Shown: piece by piece, positions 4,347-63,333 of the stretch
Layout: each line of letters opens with the position of its first letter
Numbering within the stretch: the first letter of the stretch is position 1
From: Nannobrachium achirus
Taxonomy: Eukaryota > Chordata > Actinopteri > Myctophiformes > Myctophidae
Length of the DNA stretch: 64,000 nucleotides
NCBI GenBank assembly: GCA_963921795.1
Contig: OY997652.1
Coordinates: 18,982,940 to 19,046,939, forward strand
Reading direction: 5' to 3'
The notes under the pieces: generated by a model
The model's input: only the letters and a program-made list of their open reading frames with translations
The model's database searches: none
Told to the model about the DNA's origin: nothing
Translations under genes and position numbers: made by a program

Positions 4347-7300
4347 TTTGACTTTGCAGATGTTCTCCTGCACCAGTCCATCCATACCATTGAATACTGC
4401 TTGGGCTGTATCTCCAACACGGCGTCCTATCTGCGTCTGTGGGCGCTCAGCTTGGCCCATGCCCGTAAGTGCATTGTCAGCAGTTCTGTAAGGGATAATG
4501 AATGGCTCCGTGGTGAATGACGATATATAACATGCCGAAGGGATGTTATATATCGTCATTCACCAAGGAGCCATTCATTATCCCGCTTATTACCCGGCTA
4601 CTAAATAAAATGAATAATTTGACTCAAAACTAAAAACAAAACAAAGTATTTCCTTGTTTAAAGACGTCTGGAAGTGTTCCACAAGTGTTGCGCTGGGCGT
4701 CCCCCTAGTGCGACACGGTCGCCTTGGAAAACAAGGAAGTGGTGATTAGATAGAATCCATTTTCTGACACTACGTTGTCTATTTCTCGCTTAAAATATTT
4801 TTAAAAACATTCTTGAGAGCAACGTTTAGTTCTAAATGTCGCTGTGTGTTTGTTTACATGGCTGACATATTGGATACAGCACAAGATTCACGCAGTGCAG
4901 CTTGACTGCAGCAGGTGCTCTGAGTCTTTGATTAGGCAGCGGTCTGTTATAGAGCGGAGCGGTCTGTTATCCAGAAATAACAGACCGCTGATTTCAGCAA
5001 CTGACCAATCAGAATCAAGCATTCAAACAAGCCGGGTAATAAATGAAGATATTTCCACACCCTACTCTGCGACGGTATTTATCTGTTGTTGTTGCTGTTT
5101 TGTTCCTTAGAGCTGTCTGAGGTTTTGTGGGCCATGGTGATGCGCCTGGGTCTGAGGATCACTACCAGAATAGGAGTGTTATTTTTGGTGCCTGTATTTG
5201 GCCTTTTTGCTACACTCACCGTGTCCATCCTTCTAGTCATGGAGGGCCTTTCAGCCTTCCTCCATGCTCTCCGCCTCCACTGGTGAGTACCGCCTCACAA
5301 GGGCGTCACAAGGTGGGGAAAAGTGGGACTGAGTTACTAGGGCCCAAGGTGGAGGGGCCTTAATTATTTTATACTTTAGCTATTGAAAAATAGCAGATAC
5401 ACAAGCTCACAGCACGGCACTCGTAAGCTTGTAGATCTGCTATTTTTGAAGAGTCGTGAAAATGTGTGCAAATCTTTGAATATATTTATTTTTCAAGCGC
5501 ACATTTGTAACTCAAATTTTGCTTCTGGGGGTCCTTGGAACTAAATATTTTGCGATGGGTGTCCGTGGCCAAATACATATGGGGGTCCATCACATGAAAA
5601 GGTTTGAGCACCACTGACATAGAAACATAGGTTTTTCAAAAAACCTTAGAGGATTTGAAATATTGAAAGACTCACACATGTTCACGATTTTTCAAAAATA
5701 GCAGATCTACAAGCTTGTATATCTGCTATTTTTCAATAGTTAAAGCACAAAATCATGCATAATAATGCGTTCCTAGTCTAAATGGGTTAAACCTCCTCCT
5801 CCACCTATGAAGATCATTCATGGGGGGCCCGCAGTGAATCCTTGTACCCAGGGCCCAGGGAATTTGGTGTGACACCCCTGCCGCCTTATGTCATTGATAG
5901 TTTCACCTCTACAATGTAGTGTTGGTTAAGGTTTATTAACAACTTTCAACCTGGTGTCCCTATTATGGGCACATCATTATGGGCTAAATGTTTTTTAAAG
6001 TGATAAACCTTTTTGGTCTGTGTTTTATTTTTTTCTCTATGAAAGAAAAACAATAGCATTGTATTAATTTACTCCTAATGACCAAATAAAACTACTATTA
6101 CCGCTTCTAACAACCCTCGACGAAAGGTGTCAGGAGGAAGTTTATTCTGACGTCACTACAGTAGGGGTCTTCAACGTTTTCAGGCCAAGGACCCCTTAAG
6201 GGCCATTTATAGTTACGTATGGTTGATTTTGTGTACGTTTGGGGGTGATACAGTACGTACGGTAATTGCGTTGACATTCATAGTACCGTACGGTCTCTGT
6301 GTTACAGGGTTCAATAAAGCCTATATGTACATACTATATCCACTAGATGGCACCCAAATGCATCTTCCCAATGAGCAAATGCTACATGCTACATACATAG
6401 CGCCTACATTGTTGACAGAGAGGTTTATAGACACCCTTGGAGGATACACTCGGATTGAACGACACTAACCATCGGCGCTAGTCACTGTGCTGTCTGGGTA
6501 TAATATAAAAAGGACTGGAGAATGGATGAGCGTGGACACATGCCGTTGCGACCGCCTAGAGCGCAATCTCAAGGGGGGCGCCGCCGACAGTTAATGAGCC
6601 ACGGTAGCCACCCAAACCGACCCAAAACCGACTAAAAACACCCCAATACCCGCAAAAATCGTGTGCACGGGAGTGGAGAGAGACGCATTCGAGAGAGCCC
6701 AGTTGGTACTAGGTAGAGAGCGCTGATTAGGCTGACATGCGGGTCTGCGTCCTGGCCTGTTCACTGTTCAGCGTGTACTTGTGTTTTTTTTTTGTTTGTT
6801 TTTTTTACTTCCTCCTACGAAATGGATACAAGAAAAAAAGACGAAACATTTCTCCCTCTACTGCCCCCACGGTTGACACAAGTTCGCCACGGGTAGTTCA
6901 TGTGTACGTACGTTTTTATCGGTTTTAGTCCGTCAGGTTGAGTGTTGTCCGTAAGGTTACTGAGAGAGACAATTACGTCCGGAGCTACGGAGAGACCGGA
7001 TTAAATTACTCTCCCCCTCCGTTTCTTGTGTATTCCTGCGGTCCTTAAGTACTACTATGCATGGTACTTTAGTTGAGAGAGAGATTAAACAGGGACCCAC
7101 AACCTTTTCATATATTCCATATATTTTCATCGTTTGACAGCACAATCAACAGTGTATTTTGGATTCATTTCAATTTGTGTTTTCAGATATTTAACCACTT
7201 GAGCCTTCATTACCTATAATAAACTTGACCTTTCACTCTGTACTTAGTCTGCTCTTTTAACCCTCTACACCAAACCTCTTTGCCGAAGATAGATGATCTA

Positions 7301-7615
7301 CAAGCTTCACAATGCCTCGCAGCGTGTGGCGTTGTGAGCTTGTAGATCTGCTATTTTTGGCTACAGTTCTCAGAATATGGACACTAGGGTTCAAGTGGTT
7401 AATATAAAAAAGGAAAAAGACCCTATCACTCAAAGATATGGAGGATCCCCTGTTGAAGACCCATGCACTACAGTGTATTTACTAAAAAGGATTTTTTTTT
7501 TTTTAATTTCAGGGTGGAGTTCCAGAACAAATTCTACCACGGGACAGGTGTTAAGTTTGTCCCTTTCGACTTCTCCCTGCTGCCCTCGGTATGTGAGCAA
7601 GATGGCTTACTGTAA
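4347..7615 (+). CDS. atp6v0a2: V-type proton ATPase 116 kDa subunit a, a2-like, last three coding exons
   Basis: Coding exons are 4347-4464, 5111-5282 and 7513-7615 (stop TAA), with GT-AG introns and compatible phases (Gln split at the first junction, Trp at the second). Subunit a is the membrane stator of the Vo sector and supplies the two half-channels for proton movement. The exons encode its C-terminal membrane region, including the hallmark segments [29 protein letters not shown] and [16 protein letters not shown]. The tail [10 protein letters not shown] resembles mammalian a2 more than a1, a3 or a4, hence the symbol; the a or b fish copy cannot be told. Earlier exons lie left of the window, beyond the BEL/Pao element. 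Both introns carry MITEs, one starting 8 bp into the second intron. Candidate poly(A) signals occur at about 8606 and 8726. Confidence 0.93.
4492..4584. repeat. Snap-back palindrome, arms about 42 bp
   Basis: The sequence from GGGATAATGAATGGCTCC returns as its reverse complement up to 4584, with one or two mismatches and a loop of under 10 bp. It begins 27 bp after the splice donor of the atp6v0a2 exon ending at 4464, and could form a strong stem in the pre-mRNA. Confidence 0.9.
4587..5042. mobile_element. Non-autonomous DNA element with 13-bp TIRs
   Basis: TTATTACCCGGCT at 4587-4599 is perfectly inverted as AGCCGGGTAATAA at 5030-5042. Inside, the 12-mer GCGGTCTGTTAT occurs twice directly (about 4940-4974) and once inverted (about 4979). 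There is no coding capacity. The snap-back at 4492-4584 abuts the left end and may belong to the same element. Superfamily unknown. Confidence 0.75.
5386..5447. repeat. GATCTACAAGC-type hairpin
   Basis: The left arm AAAAATAGCAGATACACAAGC pairs with GCTTGTAGATCTGCTATTTTT after a short loop. It is the first of two in the family B MITE. Confidence 0.9.
5694..5733. repeat. GATCTACAAGC-type hairpin, near-perfect 40-bp palindrome
   Basis: The two 20-bp halves are reverse complements with one mismatch and no loop. It is the minimal form of the hairpin seen across the window. Confidence 0.92.
6199..7068. mobile_element. PIF/Harbinger-like non-autonomous element nested in a hAT MITE
   Basis: Compared with the uninterrupted family A copies, this 870-bp block sits between TTA (6196-6198) and TTA (7069-7071), the 3-bp target duplication typical of PIF/Harbinger. 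The ends are imperfect inverted repeats (AGGGCCATTTATAGT against AGTACCATGCATAGT, 11 of 15). No open frame resembles a transposase. Confidence 0.65.
7282..7361. repeat. GATCTACAAGC-type hairpin in family A MITE
   Basis: GATCTACAAGCTTCACAATGCC pairs with the reverse complement around GGCGTTGTGAGCTTGTAGATC. The outer bases GCC and GGC extend the stem. Confidence 0.88.
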
Positions 7616-8471
7616 CAAAGGGACAAAGGGCCGCACTGGACGTGTGTGGGGAAATGGATGACTTTTATAATTAAGAAGGAAGCTGAAGGTTTGAGCAATG
7701 CACACTGTGATACTGACAACAGATAGAAACTCATTGTCATAGCGATGTTTTTTCCACCATGGCAATGTTTAAACTATATGTTATTGGCTGCACTGACTGC
7801 CTTACATGGTTGCCACCGTATCCAGCAAACCTCTGAAAACCTTGGGGTTTAAAGTTCTTAATCTAAGAATTATCTCATTTTGTAGGTACAGTATATATGC
7901 TATACACTATTGGTTGGTCCATAATTGGGCAAATTCTAACATTTGATTTGCTTTGTGCTGTGTAAAATATTTTTTTGTAATATTTATTACTTGATATGTC
8001 CAATTAACATATGTTCGGGGCAATACAAATATGTTACAACAGTATACTTCATATCACGCATCCTGATTTTTGAGTGCCATATAGATTAGCTCCCGATGAT
8101 GAAAAGTGAACAGCTGAGGGGTTGTGAAGTTATTCAATGCTGCTTATTCATGTGATGAAGATACTTGTTGGCAAAGATCATCAAAGTTCCGCTGATAAAT
8201 GTTGTTACTAATATTAAGGAAAGAAGAAAAAGACATCACAACCTTTTAGTGAAAGATACTGTCACAACGCACTTTTCAAAGAACAATGTAGAAATGATTG
8301 TACAAGGAAAATATCTGAATTTCCACCATTGACTGTGATGATGCCAAATGAAAATAATCTTCAACTGTTAGCTATTTACTTTAATTTAATGCTTATTTAA
8401 AGATAACCTCCCCTGCAATAAATAGGGAAATGTTCCTGAAGAAGTCAAGGCGCCTTAGTTCTTTCTTCAGA
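7616..8471. other. Probable atp6v0a2 3' UTR and adjoining AT-rich DNA
   Basis: AT-rich, non-coding. No repeat or second gene was recognised. An AATAAA-type hexamer is near 8417, with others at about 8606 and 8726 inside and beyond the following duplicated block. Confidence 0.4.
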
Positions 8472-9653: not shown

Positions 9654-9782
9654 AGCAATAAGCCACAAGAGGCGAGTGGTTACCTGGTATTTTACACCGG
9701 CTGAGAGGCGTAGCCGAGTGTCTCCAACACACTCAGCCGGTGTAAAATACAGGTAACCACAAGCCTCACGTGGCTTATTGCT
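9654..9782. mobile_element. Fold-back MITE
   Basis: AGCAATAAGCCAC through TTTTACACCGGCTGAG is inverted as CTCAGCCGGTGTAAAA through GTGGCTTATTGCT. The arms are about 50 bp with a few mismatches and the loop about 25 bp. Confidence 0.85.
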
Positions 9783-9959: not shown

Positions 9960-10398
9960 TTTGGCTAAAAGTACAAAAGTATTGGTATCAAAATGTACTT
10001 CAAGAACAGTAAATCATTATGTAAGTAAAAGTACTGCAGAATGTCCTATTTAAATTTTCAAATGTGTACAAATATTTTGAAAATAACAGATCTACAACCT
10101 TGCAGATTGGCTATTTTCTCATGGCCGAAATGTACATAGGGCTGACATTTTTTAATGTAAGTTTTGTAATAATAATCAAATTCTACAAAGTAACCGCAGT
10201 AGTAACTAAACCTTCCAAATAATTGTAGATGATTAAAAGTGTAATATTTGGATCTGAGATGTGGAGGAGTAGAATTAAAAGTATTGGAAATGGGGAAATA
10301 CTCAGGTAAAGTACAATTTAAATACCTAAAAATTGTACTTATTACAGTACTACAGTAAATGTTGGCTACTTAGTTACTTTACACCACTGGTTGTTGCT
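9960..10398. mobile_element. Degenerate MITE rich in 'AAAAGTACAAAAGTATTGG' motifs
   Basis: It resembles the blocks at 18127-18440, 19020-19400 and 62612-62800. The right end ACTTTACACCACTG mirrors CAGTGGTGTAAAAAGTAAC at about 62611. The internal hairpin is at 10078-10117. Confidence 0.6.
10078..10117. repeat. GATCTACAAGC-type hairpin, diverged
   Basis: GAAAATAACAGATCTACAAC pairs imperfectly with GCAGATTGGCTATTTTC. Confidence 0.7.
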
Positions 10399-11250: not shown

Positions 11251-11465
11251 GATATTGCGTAAAGCATCTTGGTGATGATTGGTTAAATCATTTTATTTAG
11301 GCCTAAATAGTTGTCAGTATGAGGCTCTATTTCTATTTTACAAATTTTTTGTTGGATAAAGATGGCAAGAAATGCCAGAAAATTCAATGCTTGTTCTCAA
11401 AGATATATCTTATTTTCTCTCTAAATCTAATTCAATCAGTATGTTTTCATGTGTATTGACTGAAT
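11251..11465. repeat. Local duplication, copy 2
   Basis: Diverged direct copy of 8472-8706. No flanking target duplication is evident, so a segmental duplication or a low-copy repeat is possible. Confidence 0.88.
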
Positions 11466-12480
11466 CTATCTCTTATTAGACTCGCTATAATGTTCTATCC
11501 AGCTAATTTTACTGAAATATCCTAGTGAGTGATCTTCTATCTTGTCTGTTTTGGATTCTCTGATGCAATGTGTCTTCTGAGTGGATATAGCACTTACTGT
11601 AGATCATATACTGTACATAAATTATAACATAATTATGCAGAACATTTTGTCCTTTTCCTTTATATACCCAGGGACTTATATCGGTCATGCATCTTATGAA
11701 CATCCTTACTTCAAGGCAAGCTCTCTCCCGCCCTACACTGTTTTTCTGTCTCCCTCCCTCTTTCCCCCAGAATGACGACAGTCAGAGCTGAATGAAATGA
11801 CCTTCCTTTAGACTCCTCCTCCTATTCTGTAAAAAGGAGGGAGAGAGAGAGAGAGGCAAGGTGAATGAAAAAGAGGAAGTGTAGCTATAGAGCTACATCT
11901 ATCTCCATCCACATTGTAAAGACAATAGGGAGCAATGAGGGCATTCTTCTTAACTAGTTTCCCGTGGTAAGTAACCTCTTTATTACCTGCAGTTATACCG
12001 TGAACAAGATCAAAAGTGGGCTTCAGATGCTGGAATTTGTAGCTGTTAGGGTGTGTACCTTCATGAGGTTAAAAGACTTGGAAGTGGCTTCACAGAGCAG
12101 TCAGTGTAAAAATAGGTGTTAAGCTAAATATGATGGTTACACGGCTCTCTATTCAAAAAGTAGATTATTTCAGAACCTCAAAACACAAATGGGTCTGCAT
12201 GTGACACTCTTTGAGAATTGGCCCAGTTATTACATTGTCTATTTCTAAAAGGGGTGTGTCTCTTGAGTGCTCAGTGCTCCTAATACTCTCAGTTAGAATT
12301 TAGGCATTCATCTGAAGTGTGCAAACAACGCTTTCTCTTATTCTTACTGCAGCTGCTTATCTCTATAGGCAACGACTAGATCATAAAAGGTGACATGTAA
12401 ACCATCAGTATTTGTTTGTTTTGTTTCTTTGGATGGCTTTGATCATTGGGATTTTGGATTCAAGTTAACATTTACCACTT
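11466..12480. other. Intergenic DNA, nothing recognised
   Basis: AT-rich, with a short (GA)n at about 11838-11856. No exon-like segment with splice sites was recognised. Confidence 0.4.
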
Positions 12481-12540
12481 AAATAGCTGATCACGTTGCA
12501 TGGTGATGTGTTGTGTGAGCTTGTAGATCTGCAATTTTTT
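12481..12540. repeat. GATCTACAAGC-type hairpin, decayed left arm
   Basis: AAATAGCTGATCACGTTGCA has lost the CTACAAGCT segment. The right arm GTGAGCTTGTAGATCTGCAA is preserved. Confidence 0.65.
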
Positions 12541-12915
12541 ATAAAAGTTAAAGTAGTTAAGACACTATAATCAGGATTTTAACACATGAGCTCATCCCAT
12601 TTGGAAGGTTTGAATGTTGGAATGTATCTTAACATGTATTTTCGAAAACAATTTAGCTTTATTGTTTTTTTTTTGTGTGTGTGCGTTAAATTGCTGCAGC
12701 CATCGCAGATCCAGTTGCAACAAAAATAATACATTTGGAGATTTGAACACAAAACGGTGTCAAACAACTGTCGCTCTCACTGCGTGTGGGTTTAAAATCT
12801 GAATTCTATTTAGATAAGAAAATAACTCCCCTAAAGGAGGAATCAGTGCAGCTGTTGTTGTGGAGCAGACTTGCATTAACTATTTAAACCCTCTACATTA
12901 GTTGTACATCACATA

Positions 12916-12972
12916 GCGAAAATGATCTACAAGCTCACAACAGTATGGTGCTGTTTCATTGTTTTTGCAGAA
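12916..12972. repeat. GATCTACAAGC-type left arm
   Basis: GCGAAAATGATCTACAAGC followed by TCACAACAG; the right arm is decayed beyond recognition. Confidence 0.55.
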
Positions 12973-13215
12973 TGTTTCCCTATGACATGTCCAGAATAGT
13001 GATGCTAGGGTTCATGTGGTTAGGAAAGTGAATCTTTGATCATTTCCACATTCCCTCTCTTCCTCCCTATTGGTGATCACTTTATCTTCAGTCATTCAGT
13101 GATGAGTCATATGTCTCATACTGAAGGCAAGGAATAAGCACAGCACATGTATATATGCTTTTCTCATTATGATTTGTCACCCACTTGCTTTCTTGTTTTC
13201 ACTCATATTCATTAG

Positions 13216-13880
13216 TAGCTCTGGTCCATAGCGTTAGTGGAGTTCTCCCTAACGCTATGTGCCTCTACCTCCGTATTCCTTGGCAAAACCGGAACACCCC
13301 GCCGTCTGGTCCAAAAATAACAAAAACTGTTTCGCCCCTCATCAAACCAAAGGTATCAGTGGACAGTTGAAAGCTTACTCTACTTAGTGGACGAGGTCTG
13401 AGCCCCCCACCACACGATTAAAATACATTTCTAGGGCAAAATGAAAAATATTCTACCAGATGGAGACGCTCTTCCAGGTTTTTACGAAACAGCGCTTCTA
13501 ACGTCGCAGAGTTGAATAACACCCAGTGAGACTAATGCTCATTGTAATTCGGTCCTCTGACCTGCGCGGCAGTAGTGAGTTGGCACCTTGATGGCGACGA
13601 CAAATAGTGAAAAACGAGAAGAAATGGAGTCTCCATCCGGTAGAATATTTTTCATTTTGCCCTAGAAATGTATTTTAATCGTGTGGTGGGGGGCTCAGCC
13701 CGCGTCCACTAAGTAGAGTAAGCTATCAACTGTCCACTGATACCTTTGGTTTGATGAGGGGTGAAACAGTTTTTGTTATTTTCGGACCAGACGGTGGGGT
13801 TTTGCGGTTTTGCCAAGGAATACGGAGGTAGAGGAACATAGCGTTAGGGAGAACTCCACTAACGCTATGGACCAGAGCTA
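13216..13880. mobile_element. Mutator-like fold-back element with 9-bp target duplication
   Basis: The 665-bp element starts TAGCTCTGGTCCATAGCG and ends with its reverse complement. The inverted arms run about 240 bp each (13216-13455 against about 13640-13880) with high identity, around a central spacer of about 185 bp. ATTCATTAG flanks both sides (13207-13215 and 13881-13889). Long TIRs plus a 9-bp duplication fit MULEs. There is no transposase gene. Confidence 0.9.
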
Positions 13881-14338
13881 ATTCATTAGTATGAGTTTCC
13901 CATTTATTTATTCCATAGATTGAATTATCAATGTCTGTTGATATACTGTAGATGTGTGATATAGAGTGATATCATGTGTATTTGTCTTACCATAACTGCA
14001 TATGGGTCGTGAAATCATTACAAATTCCAGAATGAGTTTTAATTCTCTCCTTTAAATCTTCTCAGCTCCTGACTGTTTACACTAATCCACTTTAGCTTGA
14101 CTGCATGTATTTAATTTCATGGGCCTACATTTAATTCAGGCAATGTGTCTGGACGATTGCACCTTGCACACAGACAAACAGAAAAAAGCAGTGGAATATT
14201 CCTGTAACTGTTATACCCATAGAGCTATAATAATAGGGTTATACCAGACATAATAGGATGTCAGCAGTTTTCAGCATCAGGCAAGGTGACTGGAAAAGGG
14301 GAAGGGTTGCTTTTTAAATGGCAGCCAGGCCACAGTAT

Positions 14339-15373: not shown

Positions 15374-15445
15374 CAATTTGAGGTGCATTCTTTATTGTCT
15401 CCGCCAGGCCAAAGGCGTTGAAGAGACAATGTTTTGCAAAAGTCC

Positions 15446-16422: not shown

Positions 16423-19400
16423 TGTGGAGGCAACTCCAAGAAGGAGAGGTGTGGAGACAACAAGGAGAATGAGTTAATTGGTGCCATGGAGGAATCTCCT
16501 GCATTCATATCTGTGAATGCCAATGACCACACAAAGCACAAGTAAGATTTCAGCTCTTTAAGAGGAGTTATATACAGTAGGATCATCTATTCTAAACACA
16601 GCTCCTCTGATGTACCAGTAAGTTAATTATGACATCACTACCTCAATCCTGGATCATCTTACCTTTAAAAAAGAAAATAGGGGCTTTTATGCCTTTTTTG
16701 ATAGGACAGTAGACTGACAGGAAATGGGGGGAGAGATGGGGAGTGACACACTGCAAATCGGGAATCGAGCCGGCGCCGCCGCCAGGCATCCATGCCTATG
16801 TGGCAATTCCTAAGTGGTATGCGCCTGGACCAGTAGGCCAGCGGGTGCCCTGGATCATCTTATGTGATGTCATAATTAACATACATTAAAATGGAGAAAA
16901 GTACTTAGGTAAATTAAGCAACGTTGTAAAGAAATATTGTGGATACAATTTCTCTCAGGCACTCAGGGAGTAATCAGAGTATGATGAGTGGAGGAATTCC
17001 CGATGACTGGAGCCACAATGACAACGTAAGTCCCCAGCAGGCATTCGACATTACAGCTGTAGCACTATGCTGCTTACATTAAAACGCATTCGACATTACA
17101 GCTGTATGTCTATGCTTACATTAAGAGTACCTCAACTATTGTTGTTTTCTTCTTTTTAACCAGGACTCGACCAGCTCAAACCACACACAGCTACAAAGAA
17201 CCAGACGCAACCGTATCCCTGACAAACCCAATTATTCCCTCAGCCTATGGGGCATCATGAAGAACTGCATCGGCAGAGAGCTGTCCAAGATACCCATGCC
17301 TGTAAAGACGTTTGACTTATCAACTGGTTATGATGTAGTCTTTGTCTTCTTTGTATTGTTTAACACTTTACCTCCAGATTGTATGACAAACAGTGAAAAT
17401 AACAGATCCACTGTGTGCTTGTGCTGTTTTCACTATTTCAGATTGTTACAATATTTTTACATTTCTGGTTTCTTTTTCATTTTTTGAGAATAATTGAAAT
17501 TCTTGGAAAAATGTCACCCATACACGCCCAAGGAATGCCAGGGTTGAATATTGTGTTCCTCTCTAGTGTGTCTTTAGAAGTGTTGCAGGTTAGGGATGGG
17601 ACGATATGGAAGTTTCACAATTTCACGTTTTTTGTGACTAAAGAAATTGCGATTTAGTAGAGATTGAACAAAGGACTACATCAAGTATGTTATTTCCAGG
17701 TCTGTTTTACCAATTAGATGGTTTAAATGGTACCGAATATGCAGCTCGACTGAGGATAATCTCCACGATACGATTATTGTGAGTGTTTTTTATCATGATA
17801 AACGATAATAACGATTATCGTCCCACCCCTACTGCAGGTAAACTTCAACGAGCCCTTGTCGATGCTGCAGCGTCTGACCGAGGACCTGGAGTACAGTGAG
17901 CTTCTGGACCGGGCCGCGCACTGTGACTCCTCCTTGGAGCAGATGTGCTTGGTGGCAGCCTTCTCGGTCAGCTCCTACTCCACAACGGCCCACCGCACAG
18001 CAAAGCCCTTCAATCCTCTCCTCGGGGAGACATATGAGCTGGACCGCTTAGACGAGTATGGATATCGCTCCATCTCTGAACAGGTGAGGCACACAGTGGT
18101 GGGGAAACGTTCTCACATTTTTTTACTTGAGTAAAAATATCAAAACTGCAATGTATGTAGAAAAACTGTTACACAATTCAAAATTGACTTTCAAAAGTAC
18201 AAAAGTAACGGTATCAAAAAGTTGGACGCAGCTTCTCACTCAATGTGTGTGAGAAACCTTTGGACTGGTAGTGTATGTTTTGTAATATTAATCAAAATCT
18301 ACAAAGTAACTAAGTAACTCAAGTTTTCATATAATTGTAGTGGAATAAAAGTACAATATTTTCCTCTGAGGTGTAGTGGAAGTAAAAGTATAGACATTTG
18401 GAAATACTCCAGTAAAGTAAAAAATACCTCAACCACCACTGCACAGAGATACACATGCACTGATTGTTGGGTGGTGGAATACTTGACCATTACTTTTCAA
18501 GAAATGGTAAAGAGTAGTGCTCTTTGTGCTCAAATGGAGCTGTCGTGGCAGGAATTAATCAGACATATGTTCCCTCTAGTTTACACACAACAAGAGAACC
18601 CAAATAGATGGAGGCTTGGTTAGTGGACAGAGCCATACATGGCTCTTTTTATATGACGTGCTAGATTTACAAATAGTTACTCTGACAGCCTGCCAACAGG
18701 TGAGAACAGGTTTGCTTATGACTAAACTGTGTGTTGTAAATTGACCTGCATGGTGACCAGATGACCTCCTAGTAAAGGAATATACTGTAGGAGGCATAAC
18801 TATAATCAAATAGTCAATCAAAACAGTGTAGTATCACATTATTACAGATCCACTCTAGTTATTTAGTCACCAGCTCTTTATTTATACTACACAAATATTT
18901 ATAAAACACACGTTCCACCTGGTAGATACAAGAATTCACATTGATCATTGATAACAACAAAAACACACTCACTTGCAATGTGGAAATACTCTGTTACAAA
19001 TAAAGTCAGTCAGGAATTCCAGATGTACTTGAGTAAAAGTACAAAGGTATTGGCATCAAAATGTACTTAAAGTACCAAAAGTACAAGTACTCATTATGCA
19101 AAATGTCCCATTTCAAGTTTTCAAATATATAAAAGTCTTTTGAAAATAGCCGATTTACTTGTAGATCGGCTATTTTCATTTGCCCAAAGTGTATAGATTG
19201 AAGTGGTTAATGTATGTTCTGTGATAATAATCAATGTACAAAGTAACTAGTAAATAAAGTTTTCATATAAATGTAGTGGAGTAAAAGTAAAATATTTGGA
19301 TCTGAGATATCGTGGAGTAGAAGTAAAAGTATTGGAAACCGGAAGTCCTCAAGTAAAGTACAAATACCACAAAATTGTATTTAAAATTGTACTTAAGTAG

Positions 19401-22400
19401 CCTACACCAGTGTTTCTCAACCTTTTTTCTGCATGGGCACACTTCTCATGTCTCAAGAATCCATGGGCACACCAACATAATACAGGGGTGTAAATATCGT
19501 CACTGTCGGGAAGAAACCTTGTATCTCCAAGTTTCAAATTTGTAAGTTTCTTCGCAAAGTAAAGCCCTGCTTCATCATACAAGGCTGTCGCACAACAGTA
19601 GTGAAAACAGCAGATCTACAAGCACGCTTGTAGATCGGCTGTTTTCACTAGTTTAAATCATTTTTATAATGATAAATACAATACTGGCTTTCAAGCAGTT
19701 TCAAGGGGCACACTTGACCCTTCTCAGGGGCACACCAAATGTCCCCAGGCACAGTGGTTGAGAAACACTGGCCTACAGCACTGGATGCCATTCTTTCCCT
19801 CTCAGGTCAGTCATCATCCCCCAGCCGCTGCACACCATGTGTCGTCACAACGAGGCTGGACCCTGAGGCAGGACATTACCATCGACAGCAAGTTCCGTGG
19901 GAAATATATCTCTGTCATGCCTTTAGGTGAGAGCAAGGATGAATAATTATGGTGCTGACAATTCTGACGAAATCACAGAAATACTGTAGATTAAAACTGC
20001 AATCTGTAAACTTCTATGCCCTATGGTATTCGAACCCTGGACCCCTGTGTGAGTGCCAACATGTCAAAAGATGTTTTTGAGCTATAATGGAAAGTCCATC
20101 TGGGCAGAGGATAAATTACTATTTGACCCTAATGCAATACCTCTTGTCAACCAGTAGTGGTCCTATCTAACCACAGGATCTAGCATGTACAGTACAGCAA
20201 CTACACCCACCGCAGTTGTGTTAGTTATATTGTAATAACATACTCTACCATACCGATTGGTCAACATAACATTTTATTCAATTAAAAAAGTGATGGATTG
20301 CAGCTTTAAAGTGAAAACAGATGAAAATAAATTCATATTTTTGTTACTATTGTGCACTTTTGGTCATCTTCTTTTTTTCTCTGTAGGCTGTATTCACCTC
20401 GAATTCCACTCAAGTGGGAATCATTATGTCTGGAGCAAAGTCACCTCCACTGTGCACAACATCATTGTAGGAAAGTTGTGGATTGATCAGGTGTGTTATG
20501 TTAAATAAATGTGAAGATATTTGATCCTAGTTTGTTAGTCATGGTATATATTTCTTTCCCTTTCAATTCTTCCTCTCTTTCTCAAACCCTGTCTTCCTCT
20601 GTGATTATTTCCTCCTCCTCTTTTACTGTTTGTAGTCTGGTGACATTGAAATAATTAATAGCACTACCAAGGACACCTGCCACCTCAAGTTCACCCCCTA
20701 TAGCTACTTCTCCAGAGAGGTCCCACACAAAGTAAGTCTATTATCCCTTCAGTCATTGCTTCTTTTAAGATTCACTTGGTAATAATGACCATATTTATTG
20801 GTGTCTATTTTCTTCTTACATAATACTCCACAAAAGCACAGCTTACAATATGACTAGACTTGAATAAAATAATACATGACTAGTCAGGAGAAGTAATCAA
20901 AAATAAACAAGACATAAACAATTTACCCCATCTTTGTCATTGTCTCAAGGTAACAGGGGTGGTAGAGGACAGTGAAGGAACAGCACATTATATTTTGTCT
21001 GGAACCTGGGACGACAAGATGGAGAGTGCCAAGATAGTGGACAGCAGCGAAGGAATTGGAGGGTCTGAAGGCAAACAAAAGATGGTTTATCAGACTCTTC
21101 CACCAAAACTGCTGTGGAAGAAATACCCACTACCGTATGTTCATTTTCAGTCCACCCCATTATTTCCAACGCATCTTATAAGAAAACCTGTACCACTTAA
21201 GCTAAATTTGCAGGTGTCGCACGCCAATGTCATGTGCTGAAAATAGCAGATCTACAGGCTCACAGTGTGACGCGATTCGACACATTGTGAGTTTGTAGAT
21301 CTGCCATTTACAAGCTTTAAAATCCTTTCCCATTACTATCTTTTTCGCCTACCCCATATTTCATTCCTTTTGTGTCACCTGTCGCCCAATGCACAGGGAT
21401 AATGCGGAAAACATGCACTTCTTCTCTACCCTGGCTCTGACTCTGAATGAGCCAGAAGAAGGTGTGGCCCCCACTGACAGCCGCATGCGTCCTGATCAGC
21501 GCCTCATGGAGGCGGGTCTGTGGGATGAAGCTAATGTCCACAAACTGCGTCTAGAGGAACAACAAAGACACGAAAGAAGGAGGATGGAGGCACAAGCAAA
21601 CGAAGCCCTGGAACAAGGTACAGTATGCAGACAGAGAGAAGCAGGGGACAGGGAGGATTTTCTGGTCCCCGGGAGAGGGGAAATAGCTTTTTACGGCTTC
21701 AGCCAGCTGTTGGCTACTCAGATGGTTTTGATCAGGGGCGTCACAAGGGGGGAAAAAGTGGGACTGAGTTACTAGGGCCCAAGGTGGAGGGGCCTTAATT
21801 ATTTTATACTTTAGTTATTGAAAAATAGTAGATCTACAAGCTCACAGCTGCGAGCGTGTAGATCTGCTATTTTTGAAAAGTTGTGAAAATCTGTGCAAAT
21901 CTTTGAATACAGTAATTTCCGGACTATAAGGCGCACCGGACTATAAGGCGCACTGTCAATGAATGGTCTATTTTAACTGTTTTCATATATAAGGCGCACC
22001 GGACTATAAGGCGCACATAATAGACGCTACCATTGTGTTATGCATCCAACAGATGGAGCTGTGCTAAAGGGAATGTCAATGTCAATGAATGATCCATATA
22101 TAAGGCGCACTGGACTATAAGGCGCACTGTAGTTTTTTGAGAAAATTAAAGGCTTTTAAGTGCGCCTTATAGTCCGGAAAATACGGGTATATGTATTCTT
22201 TAAGCGAACATTTGTAACTCAAATATTTAGATGGGGATCCGTGGCCAAATACATATCAGTTCTGGGGTCCTTTAAATGAAAGAATTGAGCACCACTGGCA
22301 TAGAAACATAGGTTTTTCAAAAAACCTTAGAAGGATATGAAATATTCAGACTCCGCACAAATGTTAAAAAATAACAGATCTATAAGCTCGCAGCACGGCA

Positions 22401-22702
22401 CTCGGTGCCGCGCTGTGAGCTTGTATATCTGCTATTTTTCAATAGTTAAAGTACCCAGGGCCCAGAATTTGGTGCGACATCCCTGGTTTTGATCAGCGGA
22501 GAATATTGAGCGGTGTGAAGTAACAACATCATAGTTGACTAACTTGCCGTACCCTTCAGGCCAAGACTTCGAGGGTCACCAGCCACTGTGGTTTGAGAGG
22601 AGGACAGACGATGCAACAGGGGAGTGCACCTACGTCTACAAGGGTGGCTACTGGGAGGCTAAAGAACAACGAGACTGGAGGCAATGTCCTGCCATCTTCT
22701 AA
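16423..22702 (+). CDS. osbp2: Oxysterol-binding protein 2 (ORP4), ORD-domain exons
   Basis: Clean exons are 16959-17025, 17164-17301, 17838-18083, 19806-19926, 20387-20490, 20636-20731, 20950-21134, 21397-21617 and 22560-22702 (TAA), with all phases compatible. An exon ending at 16541 precedes them; only its 3' part (from about 16458, NKENE...GAMEESPAF) is in frame. The product has the full lipid-binding ORD, including the family fingerprint EQVSHHPP across the 18083/19806 junction, and ends in GGYWEAKEQRDWRQCPAIF. ORPs bind sterols and PI4P and act at membrane contacts. OSBP2 is chosen over OSBP from stretches such as EQMCLVAAFSVSSYSTT and KQKMVYQTLPPKLLWKKYPLP, and from slc35e4 next door. 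No PH-domain exon was found between 7.6 and 16 kb, so this may be an ORP4-short type gene. Confidence 0.93.
16680..16855 (-). mobile_element. tRNA-derived SINE, GACAGGAAATGG family
   Basis: It carries TTTTATGCC...TTTTTGATAGGACAGTAGACTGACAGGAAATGG...GAGTGACAC, then GGGAATCGAGCC, which is a reversed B-box-like sequence, and a reversed A-box-like end. It matches 61140-61315. It lies in an osbp2 intron. Confidence 0.7.
17591..17831. mobile_element. hAT-type MITE abutting an osbp2 splice acceptor
   Basis: It starts TAGGGATGGGACGAT and ends ATCGTCCCACCCCTA. The flanks TTGCAGGT (17583-17590) and CTGCAGGT (17832-17839) form an 8-bp target duplication (7/8). The right copy contains the working acceptor CTGCAG and the first two exon bases (exon starts 17838). 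The left copy is a duplicated acceptor. Confidence 0.9.
18127..18440. mobile_element. Degenerate 'AAAAGTACAAAAGTA' MITE in osbp2 intron
   Basis: It shares CTACAAAGTAACTAAGTAA, TATAATTGTAGTGGA and GAAATACTCCAGTAAAGTA with the copies at 9960 and 19020. Confidence 0.6.
19020..19399. mobile_element. 'AAAAGTACAAAAGTA' MITE with hairpin, in osbp2 intron
   Basis: Same family as 9960-10398. It contains the palindrome at 19141-19178 and is directly followed by another hAT MITE. Confidence 0.65.
19141..19178. repeat. GATCTACAAGC-type hairpin, short form
   Basis: TGAAAATAGCCGATTTAC pairs with GTAGATCGGCTATTTTCA, almost without a loop. Confidence 0.85.
19408..19770. mobile_element. hAT-type MITE, family C (CAGTGTTTCTCAACC ends)
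   Basis: TIRs are CAGTGTTTCTCAACC and GGTTGAGAAACACTG. Flanks GCCTACAC (19400-19407) and GCCTACAG (19771-19778) match 7/8. It ends 35 bp upstream of the osbp2 exon at 19806. Its core (about 19490-19680) is homologous to the core of the 57092-57557 element although the ends differ. Confidence 0.9.
19599..19650. repeat. GATCTACAAGC-type hairpin
   Basis: TAGTGAAAACAGCAGATC...GATCGGCTGTTTTCACTA, with a short GCAC loop. Confidence 0.92.
21239..21309. repeat. GATCTACAAGC-type hairpin in osbp2 intron, no visible host element
   Basis: AAATAGCAGATCTACAGGCTCACAGTGT... pairs with ACATTGTGAGTTTGTAGATCTGCCATTT. No MITE ends were recognised around it. Confidence 0.88.
21820..21876. repeat. GATCTACAAGC-type hairpin
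   Basis: AAAAATAGTAGATCTACAAGC...GTGTAGATCTGCTATTTTT; positional equivalent of 5386-5447. Confidence 0.9.
21910..22187. mobile_element. MITE with GGACTATAAGGCGCAC repeats, TA target site
   Basis: Its ends CAGTAATTTCCGGACTATAA and TTATAGTCCGGAAAATACGGG are inverted, flanked by TA on both sides. The unit GGACTATAAGGCGCAC recurs inside. It splits the family B MITE. Confidence 0.85.
22365..22439. repeat. GATCTACAAGC-type hairpin
   Basis: AAAAAATAACAGATCTATAAGC...GCTTGTATATCTGCTATTTTT with a GC-rich inner stem (GCAGCACGGCAC / GTGCCGCGCTGT). Confidence 0.9.
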
Positions 22703-24282: not shown

Positions 24283-24713
24283 CAGGGGTCTTCAACGTTT
24301 TCAGGCCAAGGACCCCTTAGTTGAGAGAGAGATGAAGCAGGGACCCCCACAACCTGTTCATATATTCCATATAGTTTCATTGTTTGACAGCACAATCATC
24401 AGTGTATTTTGAATTCATGTCAATTTGTGTTTTCAGATATCTAACCACTTGAACCGTCTCACTCTGTACTCTTTTTGCCCTCTACACCAGAGCTCTTTGC
24501 CAAAAATAGCTGATGTACAAGCTCACAACGCCCGTTGTGAGATTGTAGATACAGCTATTTTGGCAAAGGTTCTCAGAATATGGACGCTTGGGTTCAAGTG
24601 GTTAATATAAAAAGGGAGGAAAAGAAGTTTCTATCACACAAAGATTTGGAGGACCCCCTGTAGTAACTCTGAGGACCCCCTAGGGGTCCCGGACCCCCTG
24701 TTGAATACCCCTG
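24283..24713. mobile_element. hAT-type MITE, family A copy 2 (intact)
   Basis: It starts CAGGGGTCTTCAACG and ends GTTGAATACCCCTG. A perfect 8-bp target duplication CCCTAGTG lies at 24275-24282 and 24714-24721. It is the reference copy for the family. The internal hairpin is at 24495-24566. Confidence 0.93.
24495..24566. repeat. GATCTACAAGC-type hairpin in family A MITE
   Basis: TTGCCAAAAATAGCTGATGT...ATACAGCTATTTTGGCAA with inner stem CTCACAACG / CGTTGTGAG. Confidence 0.9.
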
Positions 24714-27203: not shown

Positions 27204-28242
27204 TGTAAATGGGTCAGTGACGTGACGCCCCAAAAAACATGTTTTTTAAAAAACTTTAAATAGCAGGCATAAAAATTATTTACTTTTGTTCTACTCACTC
27301 TCAACTTTATGGAAACACATTTTGTTTTTAGATATTTTATTGGAATCAGACTTTATTGAGCAGTTTGTTGTACTTGTGCCTAAAACCGTCATCTGGTGTG
27401 ACATGACAATAATTGTTCATAAAATGAAAATGGAGTACACCTTTCTTAAGTTACTCACTTTATCAAAGTCCTTTATCATAACTAACCTGTGATCCACTAT
27501 AGTTTTGTGAAAATTAATTGAATCTGTATATTTTTTTCATAATCAACACTCTGTGTGAGGCCCATGTTGTCGATCTTTCAACATATTTTAATTTTATTCT
27601 GACAAAAACTTTCTTTAAAATTACACAAATATTTGTGACTCTTCCTGATACTATTTTCTATGTAAACATACACATTTTTTCGGTTTCATCATTAATAAAG
27701 GTATGATTTCTCACTATTTGGAATGTCACACCAGATGACTTAGTGTCACACCAGATGACCATATCTTCATGTGTCAAAGCAAACTGTGTTTTAACCTACC
27801 TATTAGTGAGTACTGAACTTTACTGATTGATTAAACAATTACCCAGGAAAAACAGCAACAGTAAAATTGCTTTAACATTAAATAACATGGCCTTAATATT
27901 TCTGAACAGGATAGTATTGTTGGGCCTTAACATAGGATAACAAAGAATTGTAGTAGTAGATGGATGATGAGGATGTGCACAGGAATGCTACGCACACCTA
28001 AGTCTTCTGCCGGCCCACGGCAGAAGGATCTTAAAGAGACAATAAGGTGCATAGCCACACTGGGAGCCAAGGCAACATTTTATTAACACCAATTATTGGA
28101 AACAACTCAGCATTCAGGTGTATTACTTTTTTCCGAAGTCTCCTGAACTTGAACACAGCATTTTGAGTTGAACAAATTTATTTACGAATCATGTCGTTAC
28201 ACCACATCTCCACTAGCTAAAGAGTGCTGGGTTGTGCAACTC

Positions 28243-28309
28243 CGAAAATAGCTGATCTACAAGCTCTCGCAGCACAATGCGTTGAGAGCTTGTAGATCAG
28301 CTATTTTCG
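28243..28309. repeat. GATCTACAAGC-type hairpin inside the 4-kb transposon
   Basis: CGAAAATAGCTGATCTACAAGCTCTCGC... pairs with GCTTGTAGATCAGCTATTTTCG. The host is not a hAT MITE. Confidence 0.92.
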
Positions 28310-28389
28310 CTATGTTTGTCTCGGGTCCTACCTTACCTCATTGTCCAGTCCAGTGAGTGAAAGTACAAAAGTATTAGATTAGATTAGAA

Positions 28390-28493
28390 TAGACATTTAG
28401 ACTGCATTGTACATCAGCCAGTCACATTTGGTGAGGGTATCTAGACATTTAGACTGTATTGTACATCAGCCAGTCACATTTGGTGAGGGTAGC
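28390..28493. repeat. 52-bp tandem duplication at the 3' end of the transposon gene
   Basis: TAGACATTTAGACTG through TTTGGTGAGGGTA occurs twice in tandem, differing at one or two bases. The proximal copy holds the last codons and stop of exon C. Confidence 0.9.
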
Positions 28494-29913
28494 AAACCGT
28501 TTGCCCTGTTGCGGTTCTGCTATGCCACAGACAACTTCCTGCTCTTTGTAGAAAATGCAGTCTCGCCCCTTTGGCCAGACAAAACCATTTTTCATTTTTC
28601 CAAGTTGATTCATGCAGTTTATCTCTAGCCCCTCCTTATTAATGGTAACAATCTGCTCCACATATGGCTTTCCCTCATATTTGATTATGACAAACTGTCC
28701 TTGTGTGTATTCATCTGAGGAGGTGTCTGAATCCTCAGCTTGGGCCTCTCCAATAGATGCACTTGTGTCCAGCACCTGAGAAGACCTTCAGGAGGAGACA
28801 TTTAAATGTAATTTATTTGTCAGGTAGATTGTTTTTAGTAGTAAAATGTAATTACTAGCAAGTCCTCAAGTTTGCCAAGTATGTTATACTCACTGAGCTC
28901 CGGAAGCTGTTTTGGGCCTGCAGCTGACCTGGGAAGGGGGCAGTTCCGCAGATGGGCCACCACTTAGTTAAGGAAGAAAAGGAATGAATGGATGACATAA
29001 GTTACTTTATTGTCATTAAACAGGTACAATTACAGGTATCATAAAATTGGCAAAGAGAATGATTTAGTTATACTTACTCATCACTTGTCTTGTCACCTGG
29101 CACCTCAGCCCTGGAGACTTGGTCGAACTGTAATTTCCGTGGGTTGTGACAGGTGCAGATCTGAGGAAACTGGCAGAAACAACTCAGGTCTCTGTAAACT
29201 ATCTTTCCCGGGAAGATAGAAAGAACCTGGTGCGTAGTGCTGATGCCAGTCACTGGACGCACTGATGGAGGGACCATTTCATCCATGTTGGATATCTTCT
29301 CTTCTTCGATCCACATGACAGTGACTTTTTCAGAGGACTTCTGTAAATACTCACACAGATCCCTCGGTGTTTGTAGGTCACTGCCTCCGAGGACATACAT
29401 GTCTGCCTTACGCTTCAGCACCCCTCCCACACCATCAGGTGTGCCCTTTCCATGGGAACGCTCTGAAAAGTTCCAGGTGACCCTCTTGAATCCCCATGTA
29501 TAAGGAATGCTGCTCATGAGGAAGCAGTTTGTGCGATTCCGGTACTGGGTTGCTGGCCCATCACTGAGGACATGCAGGGTGTCAATTGCATTGTCTTGTT
29601 TTCCTCGGAAATCATCAATAACTGGCTTGATGTGTGCCCACACAGCACGCTCATCATGGCGTAAGGACTGTGAAATGGTGGCATAGCACTGGGAGCCACT
29701 GACTGAGTAGGCAACTCCGGTATGCACTGTTGCCTGCTGCCTATTGCCACCAAAATGAAACGCCTGAATCTCTGTGTTTAGTTTACATGCATAGTTCTCA
29801 GAAAAGTCTATATGCAAGACCATTTCATTGGGTTGGATGCTCTCCTTGATGTGTCTGAACTGCTTCACCTGATGAAGCCAGTTGAGCTGATGACTTGCAA
29901 TCGCACTGAGCCT
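28449..29913 (-). CDS. Transposase-like protein of the 4-kb element, three 3' exons
   Basis: On the minus strand, exon A (29913-29078) splices by GTAAGT to exon B (28962-28894), which splices by GTGAGT to exon C (28785-28449, stop). The joined frame of about 413 codons is open and in phase. Exon A contains HIDFSENY, then about 110 residues later LSDGPATQYRNR, then SHGKGTPDGVGG. The spacing of these acidic motifs suits an RNase H-like DDE/DDD catalytic core. I have seen similar proteins only as uncharacterised fish and invertebrate proteins and do not assign a superfamily. Exon C is acidic, then a small basic/aromatic domain. The 5' limit is uncertain: the frame is closed by TAA just upstream of about 29930, so N-terminal exons lie further right or are missing. 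Confidence 0.7.
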
Positions 29914-31223
29914 CTGGTTGAACACATCAGTGAGTCCAAATTAATCAATTTATTTGAATTGTGCCAAATCTATAACTAGTAGTCCTACTTTTTTTCCTTC
30001 TTTTTTTTTGTTTTGCTGTATCCAAGTAAGGATAAGAACAGCTATGGTTTTGTTTAAATGCCCTTCCTCCATATCCATTCATTCATCACTATACAGTATG
30101 TTTGTGTATTTTGGAAATAATAAAATCACATTTTCTGTACCACCCATTTTCTGTTGTCAAGTGTCTTATATTAACTGCTTATAACGGATAGTTATTATAA
30201 AGTGTTACCACAATATAAGGTTTAGGTTTCTGTGAAGGGGTTTCTGCTCTGTCTGATGAATTTGCTGTATCACCGAATGAAGCTAAATTAAATTATGTAA
30301 AAATGTTTAAAACGTTGTTTTAAACATGTTAAAATGTTTTAAATGGACAAAAGAAACATGGGACTTGTTATTTATTGTTATGTCTGTAGGAAAATACAGT
30401 ATATATCATCTGGTGTGACAATCAAGTCATCTGGCGTGACAAGCAGATATGTCACACCAGATGACGAAGTGTCACACCAGATGACGTTTTCTGCATTTAG
30501 GACTACCTTGAGGCTACCAGGTACACATTAGCATGCTAACAACATGCTAGCTATAACAAAACAACCTAGATTTACATGTAATTATGACCAAAGTTTCAAA
30601 TAACTTTTGCTTTATTAATGAAAAAGGTGTCACACCAGATGACATCCAGAAGTGCCACACTTGTCAAAGTTTCAACAAGATGGCATTTCATGAAAATGTT
30701 AAAATCATAACTCACCTCAGACACCTGTCTTGCAGTTGTGCTGGGAGTGCTGAATAGCCTTACAGAAGAAGGACCTCTCTAGCCCAGTAGGTGTCCAAAT
30801 TATTGCCTGTTTAATTTTTCCAAACTAGTGTCACACCAGATGATTTTGGTTTGGGGGACAAAATCTTTTTGATCAGAAATGACTGAAAACATTATGCTTG
30901 GACTTTGAAAAGATATAGGCTCACAAATAGACATTTTTTTTTTGCCTAAATTCATTTTTAAATGAATTTTAGCAATTCTTTTTCTTAGTTTTATTCAAGT
31001 TCCCACTTTGAGAAACAAGGTCGGGACAGTCACACCAGATGACATTTACCATGTTTGGTTGAAGATTCTGAAGAAATGAGGAATGAAATGTTTTAATCTT
31101 GAGTAAGTTCACATAAAGCTTAATGTCCTGCACAATATTCAGAAGGTTTTTGACAAATATATTTTTTATTTATACATGTTTGACACCGAGGACAGCGAAA
31201 ACGCTACGTCACGTCACCCACCC

Positions 31224-48807: not shown

Positions 48808-58764
<9,957 letters not shown>

Positions 58765-58775: not shown

Positions 58776-59152
58776 CAGGGGTCTTCAATGTTTTCCAAGG
58801 ACCCCTTAGTTGAGAGAGAGATGAAGCAGGGACCCCCACAACCTATTCATAGATTCCATATACACGTAGTTCCATTGTTTGACAGCACAATCATCATTGT
58901 ATTTTGGATTCATGTCAATTTGTGTTTTCAGATTCGTATTTAACCACTTGAACCTGCTGCGAGGCGTTGTGAGCTTGTAGATCGGCTATTTCCGGCAAAG
59001 GCATTTGGTTCTCAGAATATGGACTCTAGGGTTCAAGTGGTTAATATAAAAAAGGAGAAAAAAAAGTTTTTATCACTCAAAGATTTGGAGGACCCCCTGT
59101 AGTAACTCTGAGGACGCCCTAGGGGTCCCGGACCCCCTGTTGAAGACCCCTG
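58776..59152. mobile_element. hAT-type MITE, family A copy 3, at the start of the inpp5j 3' UTR
   Basis: It starts CAGGGGTCTTCAATG and ends GTTGAAGACCCCTG. It has a perfect 8-bp target duplication TTCTACAG (58768-58775, 59153-59160). The inpp5j stop ends at 58764, so the duplication begins 3 bp after it. Only the right half of the internal hairpin remains (58957-58998). Confidence 0.95.
58957..58998. repeat. GATCTACAAGC-type hairpin, right arm only
   Basis: CTGCGAGGCGTTGTGAGCTT then GTAGATCGGCTATTTCCGGC. The left arm is deleted relative to the family A copies at 6162 and 24283. Confidence 0.85.
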
Positions 59153-59723: not shown

Positions 59724-59776
<53 letters not shown>

Positions 59777-62800: not shown

Positions 62801-62871
62801 GTTACCTTGCAGAATATTTCTTATCTAATTGTATGTTAACATTACAAAACGACAGTATTGATTGATTGATT

Positions 62872-63036
62872 GAAGACTTTATTAGAAGTTTGCATAGGAA
62901 AAGGTACAGTTTCATGACGGTACAGTTCACTGGTACAAGGTCTACTAAAAGGAGATCCATGAAAAGACTAAGCTTATTTCCACTGGAAACCATTGAAGTA
63001 TCTCATATAACATTGAATGACAGACAAATAGAACAC
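62872..63036. repeat. Dispersed repeat shared with 33841-34000
   Basis: AAAAGGTACAGTTTCATGAC, GTACAGTTCACTGGTACA and CTCATATAACATTGAATGAC recur in the slc35e4 intron copy. Confidence 0.8.
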
Positions 63037-63249
63037 ATTCTTTGACTGTTATGTAATGATATCCACAGCCTACTCACAACAATAGTACCAGGCTGTGATA
63101 TCATTGATTCGTACAAATCATGCTATATTGCATCATTCAAAAAAACGTCTTCATTCGGGGGGTTGCTAATAATCAAGGCTAACCAACGCCACCACGTTCC
63201 TTCAGGCTCGGCCACGCGTGGAGCTTGTCAACGTAAAGAACGACGTCTT

Positions 63250-63333
63250 GCGCCGAAAACAGCTGATCTACAAGCCCACAACGCGTCGCGGGCGCAACTC
63301 GTTGTGAGCTTGATGATCTGCTACTTTTCGGCG
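63250..63333. repeat. GATCTACAAGC-type hairpin in mat2a intron 1
   Basis: GCGCCGAAAACAGCTGATCT... pairs with ...GATCTGCTACTTTTCGGCGC. The outer GCGCCG/CGGCGC extends the stem into flank. No enclosing MITE recognised. Confidence 0.9.

Follow-up and report, generated by a model that had tools for sequence, protein, structure and literature searches.

How a single short hairpin comes to lie inside many different transposable elements is the question raised by a stretch of 64,000 nucleotides from the myctophid fish Nannobrachium achirus (assembly GCA_963921795.1, contig OY997652.1, positions 18,982,940 to 19,046,939), referred to here as the window. In an earlier reading of the bare sequence (the original prediction), 18 sites were listed at which one palindromic stem recurs within unrelated mobile elements; a copied or mobile module, a sequence kept for its structure and a hot spot of inverted duplication were proposed as causes. 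The findings below tentatively suggest that one ancestral palindromic module of ~73 nt travels as a passenger in numerous non-autonomous hAT elements as well as in one or more non-hAT transposons, passes between families and has been kept for its structure.

The hairpin sites in the window

A profile search of both strands matched all 18 listed sites (Table 1). This agreement arises partly by construction, since the profile was made from 17 of those sites, with 58957 left out of the model; that site was recovered all the same and, as claimed, has one arm only, the other being missing. Support independent of the profile is given by a mismatch scan, in which at least 8 of the 18 sites have an arm no more than one mismatch from the 19-mer of the original prediction; with as many as 4 mismatches allowed, 0-1 single-arm matches were seen in 20 mononucleotide-shuffled versions of the window. 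The profile search of the window also found an extra weak copy, the nineteenth, at 17395 and a candidate lone arm at 37667 (E 0.009). The covariance model of the 17 aligned rows acquired no base pairs and was used purely as a sequence profile.

When folded as DNA and compared with dinucleotide shuffles, 13 of the 17 two-armed sites are far more stable (z -4.7 to -15.1), and those at 10078, 12481, 12916 and 54937 are no better than the shuffles (z -1.1 to +0.6). The arm consensus is approximately YGAAAAYAGCWGATCTACAAGCTCACA, followed by a variable tip; its central part is GATCTACAAGCTCACA, and the best-preserved copies have a stem of ~35 bp and a loop of ~3 nt. Fourteen hairpins were measured with edges set by hand. 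The six longest lie in six different contexts and are all 71-76 nt; the remaining 8 (36-65 nt) are read as having lost their tips. The alike lengths of the full hairpins disfavour the hot spot of inverted duplication, because independent inverted duplications would set the centre at varying places.

Abundance and diversity of contexts

The original prediction called for a genome search for paired arms. Within the window's own assembly (1,658,514,493 bp), the two-arm core pattern GATCTACAAGC N10-40 GCTTGTAGATC has 79,657 exact occurrences, and the reversed pattern has 0. A larger sample was formed by twenty 10-kb stretches at the fixed 5.0 Mb coordinate of contigs 1-20, an arbitrary rather than random choice, giving 264 kb together with the window. 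At E<=0.01, the profile found 76 loci in these 200 kb and 19 in the window, 95 in total, compared with 0 in the reversed 264 kb. Extrapolation gives a copy number of ~630,000 (95% bootstrap 431,000-838,000), suggesting that the hairpin is probably present hundreds of thousands of times in the genome. The exact pattern is present 3 times in the window and 11 times in the 200 kb, where the genome count predicts 9.6. Among 100 strong, non-low-complexity hairpins in the 264 kb, 48 are the shared hairpin; the next cluster has 7 members, the six shown coming from one stretch.

Clustering by 60-bp flanks sorts the 95 hairpins into 34 groups, 11 multi-copy and 23 single; two other settings give 33. 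According to a flank test in the window covering 15 of the 18 hairpins (5694, 21820 and 58957 omitted; 435 pairs of 30 flanks), likeness above the 99.9% shuffle level (score 20) exists only within families I (including 12916), II and IV. The highest score for two flanks of different families is 18 (p 0.0037 singly; ~1.6 expected among 435). Flank homology of families I and II through a common AAGTGGTTAAT stretch, noticed by eye, was not significant in this test. Full-length alignment into one lineage of miniature inverted-repeat transposable elements (MITEs) had been named in advance as the sign of ordinary shared ancestry; the copies have so far been found in ~34 flank contexts and a non-hAT host.

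The hAT-type hosts

Seven hAT-type elements in the window (Table 1) have matching ends with 8-bp target duplications (7/8 or 8/8 bases equal) and CAG...CTG-type terminal inverted repeats (10-14 of 14 bases), and all of them carry the hairpin. Their ends and duplications fit non-autonomous hAT MITEs. The difference is that the hairpin is found across families whose ends differ, and in a non-hAT transposon with 4-bp duplications as well. As a control, 200 random window positions gave a best score of 22.0 at the 95% level and 26.0 at the 99% level, a harsh standard because such positions may fall in real elements. The elements at 5298-5880, 21733-22485 and 55700-55917 score near the 95% level; the weakest three host elements (21.5, 22.0 and 22.5) are also supported by family resemblance.

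The end and duplication search gave no candidate around 7282, 12481, 12916, 17395, 19141, 21239, 28243, 37667 and 63250, and only end-pair matches below the 90% control level around 10078 and 54937. A convincing hAT host is absent from this search for 21239, 28243, 54937 and 63250. A 2,965-bp end pair at 11437-14401, which surrounds 12481 and 12916, may be a host as well; it was not counted because its right end is shared with a separate palindrome of 69 bp (14333-14401), where it forms one end.

The hosts claimed in the original prediction, several element families and a non-hAT transposon, are borne out, with some sites regrouped. Sites 5386 and 5694 belong to one element, as do 21820 and 22365; both elements are of family III, with a hairpin close to either end. 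In the remaining window elements a single hairpin lies at 0.38-0.60 of element length (0.40-0.85 in the larger sample). Sites 7282, 24495, 58957 and probably 12916 are members of family I, and 10078 and 19141 of family II. At least 6 kinds of ends can be seen among the hAT hosts of the window and the larger sample; those of families I, IVa, IVb and V are alike (CAG.G..... CAA). The elements of 19599 (IVb) and 57287 (IVa) have a common interior, alike on both sides of the hairpin (p=0.002 each), but not common ends (p=0.11, 0.42).

In a window scan not anchored on hairpins, the first setting returned seven short elements, 6 of them with the hairpin and the seventh a CA-microsatellite artefact, and the mirror control returned 0. 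Laxer settings added hairpin-free pairs at 61100, 13210 and 15473, with up to 2 in the mirror control.

Two further observations concern these families. Repeats of CCGGACTATAAGGCGCAC in both orientations (21912-22184) interrupt a family III element between its two hairpins, and a family-II-like element without hairpin, its middle replaced or deleted, lies at 18094-18440.

The non-hAT host, transposon VII

The claimed ~4-kb non-hAT transposon is real and is here termed VII. Instead of the 8-bp target duplication of hAT elements, 4-bp duplications (AAAT, AGAT, ATCA, ACAT) were found in all 4 sister copies with both ends found, of 10 fetched; the window copy is flanked by AAAT/ACAT. For the two coding pieces of VII, Pfam gave no match at E<=0.01. 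The named relatives of its protein among 100 listed are mostly from teleosts and some from insects, the best listed being 84% identical (Carassius auratus).

Copies were sought with a 501-bp query spanning the VII hairpin, which gave 912 candidates. The best 40, the window copy included, all span the full query with the hairpin (35 at the top score, 5 slightly lower), in a search where hairpin-less copies are not visible because the query held the hairpin and only the best scorers were taken. Pieces retrieved from three copies each contain the exact 67-bp hairpin. These findings imply that the hairpin was already present when this non-hAT family recently multiplied.

Three observations on VII are added. 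One copy, on C17 (L039-L040), has landed in a family-III-type hairpin (left ...AAAAATAGCAGAT, right AGATATACAAGCTC...) and is flanked by an AGAT duplication; this is 1 of the 10 copies with fetched ends and may be due to chance. Many TGTCACACCAGATGA copies in both orientations (27387-31043) flank the coding pieces on both sides, and a ~50-bp tandem repeat was seen by eye between the hairpin and the coding pieces (28390-28500).

Conservation and covariation of the arms

Compensatory changes between independent contexts, as expected from a maintained structure, were found both in the window and in the larger sample. In the seven window contexts, both sides are altered in 14 of 38 pairs, a number reached by 0 of 500 shuffles, with at most 3 in slid controls, over which the test is favoured because its structure came from one of the seven sequences. 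The full-length hairpin is present in 18 of the 34 contexts of the 264 kb, 16 of them anchorable; these gave 46 double-changed cells against a mean of 18.4 and a maximum of 31 in 1000 shuffles. When arms were compared directly in 14 hairpins (58957, 12481, 12916 and 54937 excluded), 11 concordant changes were seen against 3.07 expected. With one hairpin per family, two choices gave 6 or 9 against 2.1 or 2.6 (p 0.012, 0.0005).

Conservation is unevenly distributed along the hairpin. The central arm has an identity of 580/654 (0.89) between the seven window contexts and a within-hairpin complementarity of 0.91, and the base of the hairpin has 0.77 and 0.80, respectively. At the tip, identity falls to 196/348 (0.56) with 44/58 pairs complementary (0.76), and outside the base to 19/75 (0.25) with 10/14 complementary (0.71). 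One sampled type (L008 2553-2625) shows a paired change within the central arm itself, ACATGC with GCATGT.

Decay within single copies

Between sister copies, the arms are not generally better preserved than their surroundings. Seven comparisons, three of which share family I copies, sum to 245/287 identical positions in the arms and 1374/1580 elsewhere. The arms are worse than the rest in two family I pairs (p 0.043; p <0.001), the second because 58957 is without one arm, and better in family IV (44/44 vs 60/67, p 0.041); no clear difference was seen in the other four. The arms thus decay about like the rest, suggesting that pairing is kept in the propagating elements and not at each site.

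Within hairpins, 50 of 357 arm positions are mismatched (14%; n=14 hairpins), which is close to the sister-copy divergence of 206/1580 (13%) outside the arms, so no correction is visible during residence. This agrees with arms that were almost identical on insertion and have each decayed separately since. The earlier proposal of arm identity "maintained or recent" therefore applies to the active lineages, not to the single copies; likewise, structure appears to be kept in propagating elements, as judged by covariation, and is lost by ordinary decay at individual sites.

Origin and spread of the hairpin

According to the module reading introduced above, which we hold tentatively and at somewhat less than even confidence, the module would enter a new element when a neighbouring or ectopic hairpin is copied during repair of a DNA break or gap, a route that would leave no clear target duplication around it. 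It would then be multiplied by the transposition of its host. Lineages with complementary arms may propagate better, which would maintain the structure in the master elements; the structure might act by extruding during any of excision, gap repair and replication, by binding a dyad-symmetric protein, or as an RNA hairpin.

Several points weigh against this reading. Most identified hosts are hAT elements with partly similar ends, so many of them may be of common descent. Among the 23 contexts with one copy are several low-scoring ones that may represent decayed family members; L021_4587 and L017_8023 resemble, by eye, decayed members of families III and V. The structure used for the seven window contexts was drawn from one of them, VII copies without the hairpin would escape view, and the covariation could arise by mutational arm-to-arm correction without selection. 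Among 29 anchored contexts, target duplications of lengths 3-8 at the hairpin edges show no clear peak, and a clean empty site was not found, the sampled hairpin-less family II copies being deleted or rearranged around the site.

The hairpin-free hAT elements are another such point. The 264 kb contain 25 raw hAT-type end pairs, 15 with and 10 without the profile hairpin; some are due to chance, since the mirror control gave 9 matches. At least 3 are artefacts, 45666 of the window being a microsatellite and L012 7184 and L028 203 hairpin arms taken as ends, and L026 7082-7451, counted as hairpin-free, contains a truncated hairpin. The other hairpin-free pairs are L015 4074, L021 965, L024 8181, L025 7490, L027 3706, L028 7325 and L030 2130. 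A strict requirement of the hairpin for hAT transposition, suggested by the window (6/6; 6/7), was dropped on this evidence. The hairpin is common yet not obligatory, as some hAT-type elements are without it.

Shared ancestry remains a serious rival, even if we consider it unlikely on balance: an old hAT lineage with a constrained hairpin would have had its ends diverged or swapped, with no movement between elements and VII as a single old capture. The similar ends of I, IVa, IVb and V agree with it, and a single ancestor is suggested by how alike the full hairpins are in length. The two-hairpin layout of family III could also be ancestral, as deletion between the hairpins could yield single-hairpin elements. 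Three findings argue the other way. IVa and IVb have a recognisably common interior but unrelated subterminal sequence; VII is non-hAT with its 4-bp duplications; and the arms differ by only 17.8% between families, against 11.1% within them, while the flanks are unalignable between families.

An independently mobile mini-palindrome, which itself transposes into many targets including transposons and introns, is improbable. Its attraction lies in the 23 of 34 contexts that are single-copy in the 264 kb, in the sites 21239, 54937 and 63250 with no convincing host ends, and in the large share of strong hairpins (48 of 100) that the shared one makes up. Entry by the hairpin's own transposition is left unsupported because the edges show no clear target duplication: exact 7-bp repeats occur in 0 contexts (controls 0-3), and the best of ~200 offset pairs in the 2-bp comparison has an identity of 0.48 (mean 0.25, sd 0.061) and lies at symmetric positions 13 bases beyond the core, where continued stem pairing could produce this value. 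Moreover, the conserved part fades outward with no single sharp boundary, and host transposition accounts for the copies in identified hosts. The mobile or copied module of the original prediction therefore stands as one hairpin in unrelated hosts, and not as an independently mobile one.

Mutational, selection-free correction of the arms through template switching inside the palindrome, with copy number due to hitch-hiking alone, is a still less probable account. Arm-to-arm copying would also predict covarying tips and bases, and yeast provides documented cases of templated foldback insertions at breaks (PMC11724301). Against it, the within-copy mismatch of 14% is about as high as the sister divergence, with no correction seen during residence, and plain correction does not predict a central arm better conserved than tip and base. 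A maintained RNA hairpin (a small-RNA precursor, double-stranded RNA or a 3' end structure) is very improbable: the ~35-bp stem, conserved central arm, variable yet paired tip and position ~140 bp past the last coding piece found in VII would suit it, but no Rfam family is reached at the gathering threshold in the window.

The passenger module, if real, would mean that transposon families with different transposases share or exchange a non-coding part defined by structure, which family-by-family annotation hides. The probably hundreds of thousands of palindromes would be a natural data set on hairpin maintenance, palindrome-mediated repair and the birth of MITE families, and repeat annotation would be warned that a match to the shared hairpin does not identify a family. 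The broader proposition, that a nuclear module of ~73 nt moves between cut-and-paste superfamilies, is paired to aid its own spread and has become one of the genome's commonest sequences, a non-coding transposon parasite with no target duplication of its own, is doubtful at present.

Related systems and database searches

Small palindromes that spread across a genome include the Rickettsia palindromic elements and the mitochondrial double-hairpin elements, which are bacterial or organellar; we know of no link of either to nuclear transposon families.

The Angel fold-back elements of zebrafish (Izsvak et al. 1999, cited in PMC3636048) are teleost DNA elements of high copy number with inverted repeats that fold into a stable stem-loop, and compensatory changes have been reported in two copies within long non-coding RNAs. 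Angel is one element family, whereas the present hairpin is common to many, and its arms covary from family to family, not in single copies. Yeast mitochondria contain palindromic GC clusters that are short, occupy many sites and are described as structurally constrained and as merging and shuffling together, their mobility resting on population data (PMC4478555). Unlike the present hairpin, they are mitochondrial and are not embedded in cut-and-paste transposons. General background only is given by PMC11872487 (newt hAT) and PMC3878927.

Rfam gave 0 window matches at gathering score; the sub-threshold matches over hairpins (MIR6140, two Flavi_ISFV_CRE and Clostridiales-1) are far below it. 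The exact arm sequences, in DNA or RNA letters, were not found in the open-access literature, nor was a recognised account of the shared hairpin (Repbase and subscription papers lie outside that search). No exact hairpin match exists in the viral contigs searched, no match to the longer arm in bacterial genomes and none to element I in phages. Hairpin-pattern matches in 2 bacterial contigs were judged unrelated, by eye only.

The translated IVa hairpin was used as query in two protein searches, which recovered 4 and 10 predicted proteins; these make up 13 distinct records (P0104-P0116; ENA and one MERC source) that carry all or part of the hairpin. Judged by eye, several run on into IVa or IVb flanks, some are palindromic beyond the hairpin, and P0116 includes the left flank of element V. 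The presence of the hairpin in other public protein records indicates that it is not an oddity of the window's assembly.

Features of the window

Table 1. Hairpins and host elements in the window (window coordinates)
Feature	Position	Strand	Ends, duplications and remarks	Found by
hAT-type element, family III, two hairpins	5298..5880	+	ends CAAGGGCGTCAC / CAGGGGTGTCAC; 8-bp repeat CCGCCTCA/CCGCCTTA	
Hairpin, left, of family III element	5386..5447	none		scan, fold, profile
Hairpin, right, of family III element	5694..5733	none	tip lost	scan, fold, profile
Hairpin, family I	7282..7361	none	similar region ~7069-7453, both ends not found	fold, profile
Decayed hairpin, family II	10079..10118	none	CAGTGGTGTAAAGTA type	fold, profile
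Decayed hairpin, weakly like family I	12481..12540	none	within uncertain end pair 11437-14401	fold, profile
Decayed hairpin, probable family I relic	12916..12970	none	within uncertain end pair 11437-14401	fold, profile
Weak 19th hairpin	17395..17431	none	E 7e-4; flanks TAGTG/CACTA-like	profile
Hairpin, family II	19142..19177	none	short stem	fold, profile
hAT element IVb	19408..19770	+	ends CAGTGTTTCTCAAC; 8-bp repeat GCCTACAC/GCCTACAG	
Hairpin of element IVb	19599..19650	none	tip lost	fold, profile
Hairpin, no host element found	21239..21310	none	beside or in intron of oxysterol-binding-protein-like gene (Pfam match weak, below cut-off)	fold, profile
hAT-type element, family III, two hairpins	21733..22485	+	ends CAGGGGCGTCAC; exact 8-bp repeat GTTTTGAT	
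Hairpin, left, of family III element	21821..21874	none		fold, profile
Hairpin, right, of family III element	22367..22439	none	complete tip	fold, profile
hAT element, family I	24283..24713	+	ends CAGGGGTCTTCAAC; exact 8-bp repeat CCCTAGTG	
Hairpin, family I	24495..24568	none	tip partly lost	fold, profile
Non-hAT transposon VII	27211..31223	-	ends GGGTCAGTGACGTGACG / GGGTGGGTGACGTGACG; minus-strand coding pieces 28449-28787, 29074-29940	
Hairpin within transposon VII	28243..28309	none	~140 bp past last coding piece found	fold, profile
Decayed hairpin	54938..54986	none	without convincing host	fold, profile
hAT element V	55700..55917	+	ends CAGTGGTTCCCAAA; 8-bp repeat ATTTAAAA/ATTTAATA	
Hairpin of element V	55744..55822	none		fold, profile
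hAT element IVa	57092..57557	+	ends CAGGGTTCCCCAAT; exact 8-bp repeat TTGTATGT	
Best-preserved hairpin, in IVa	57283..57371	none	stem ~40 bp, loop 3 nt; centre of imperfect 234-bp palindrome	fold, profile
hAT element, family I	58776..59152	+	exact 8-bp repeat TTCTACAG	
Single arm, family I	58959..58991	none	partner arm missing	profile
Hairpin, host not found	63252..63332	none	outer stem GCGCCG/CGGCGC	scan, fold, profile

Other palindromic sequences were also found in the window. A 94% inverted repeat with arms of ~268 bp lies at 13201-13896; its ends resemble a separate hairpin at 15315-15374, and it represents another palindromic repeat. Strong single hairpins unrelated to the shared one are located at 4492-4584, 9687-9750, 14333-14401 and 52358-52410.

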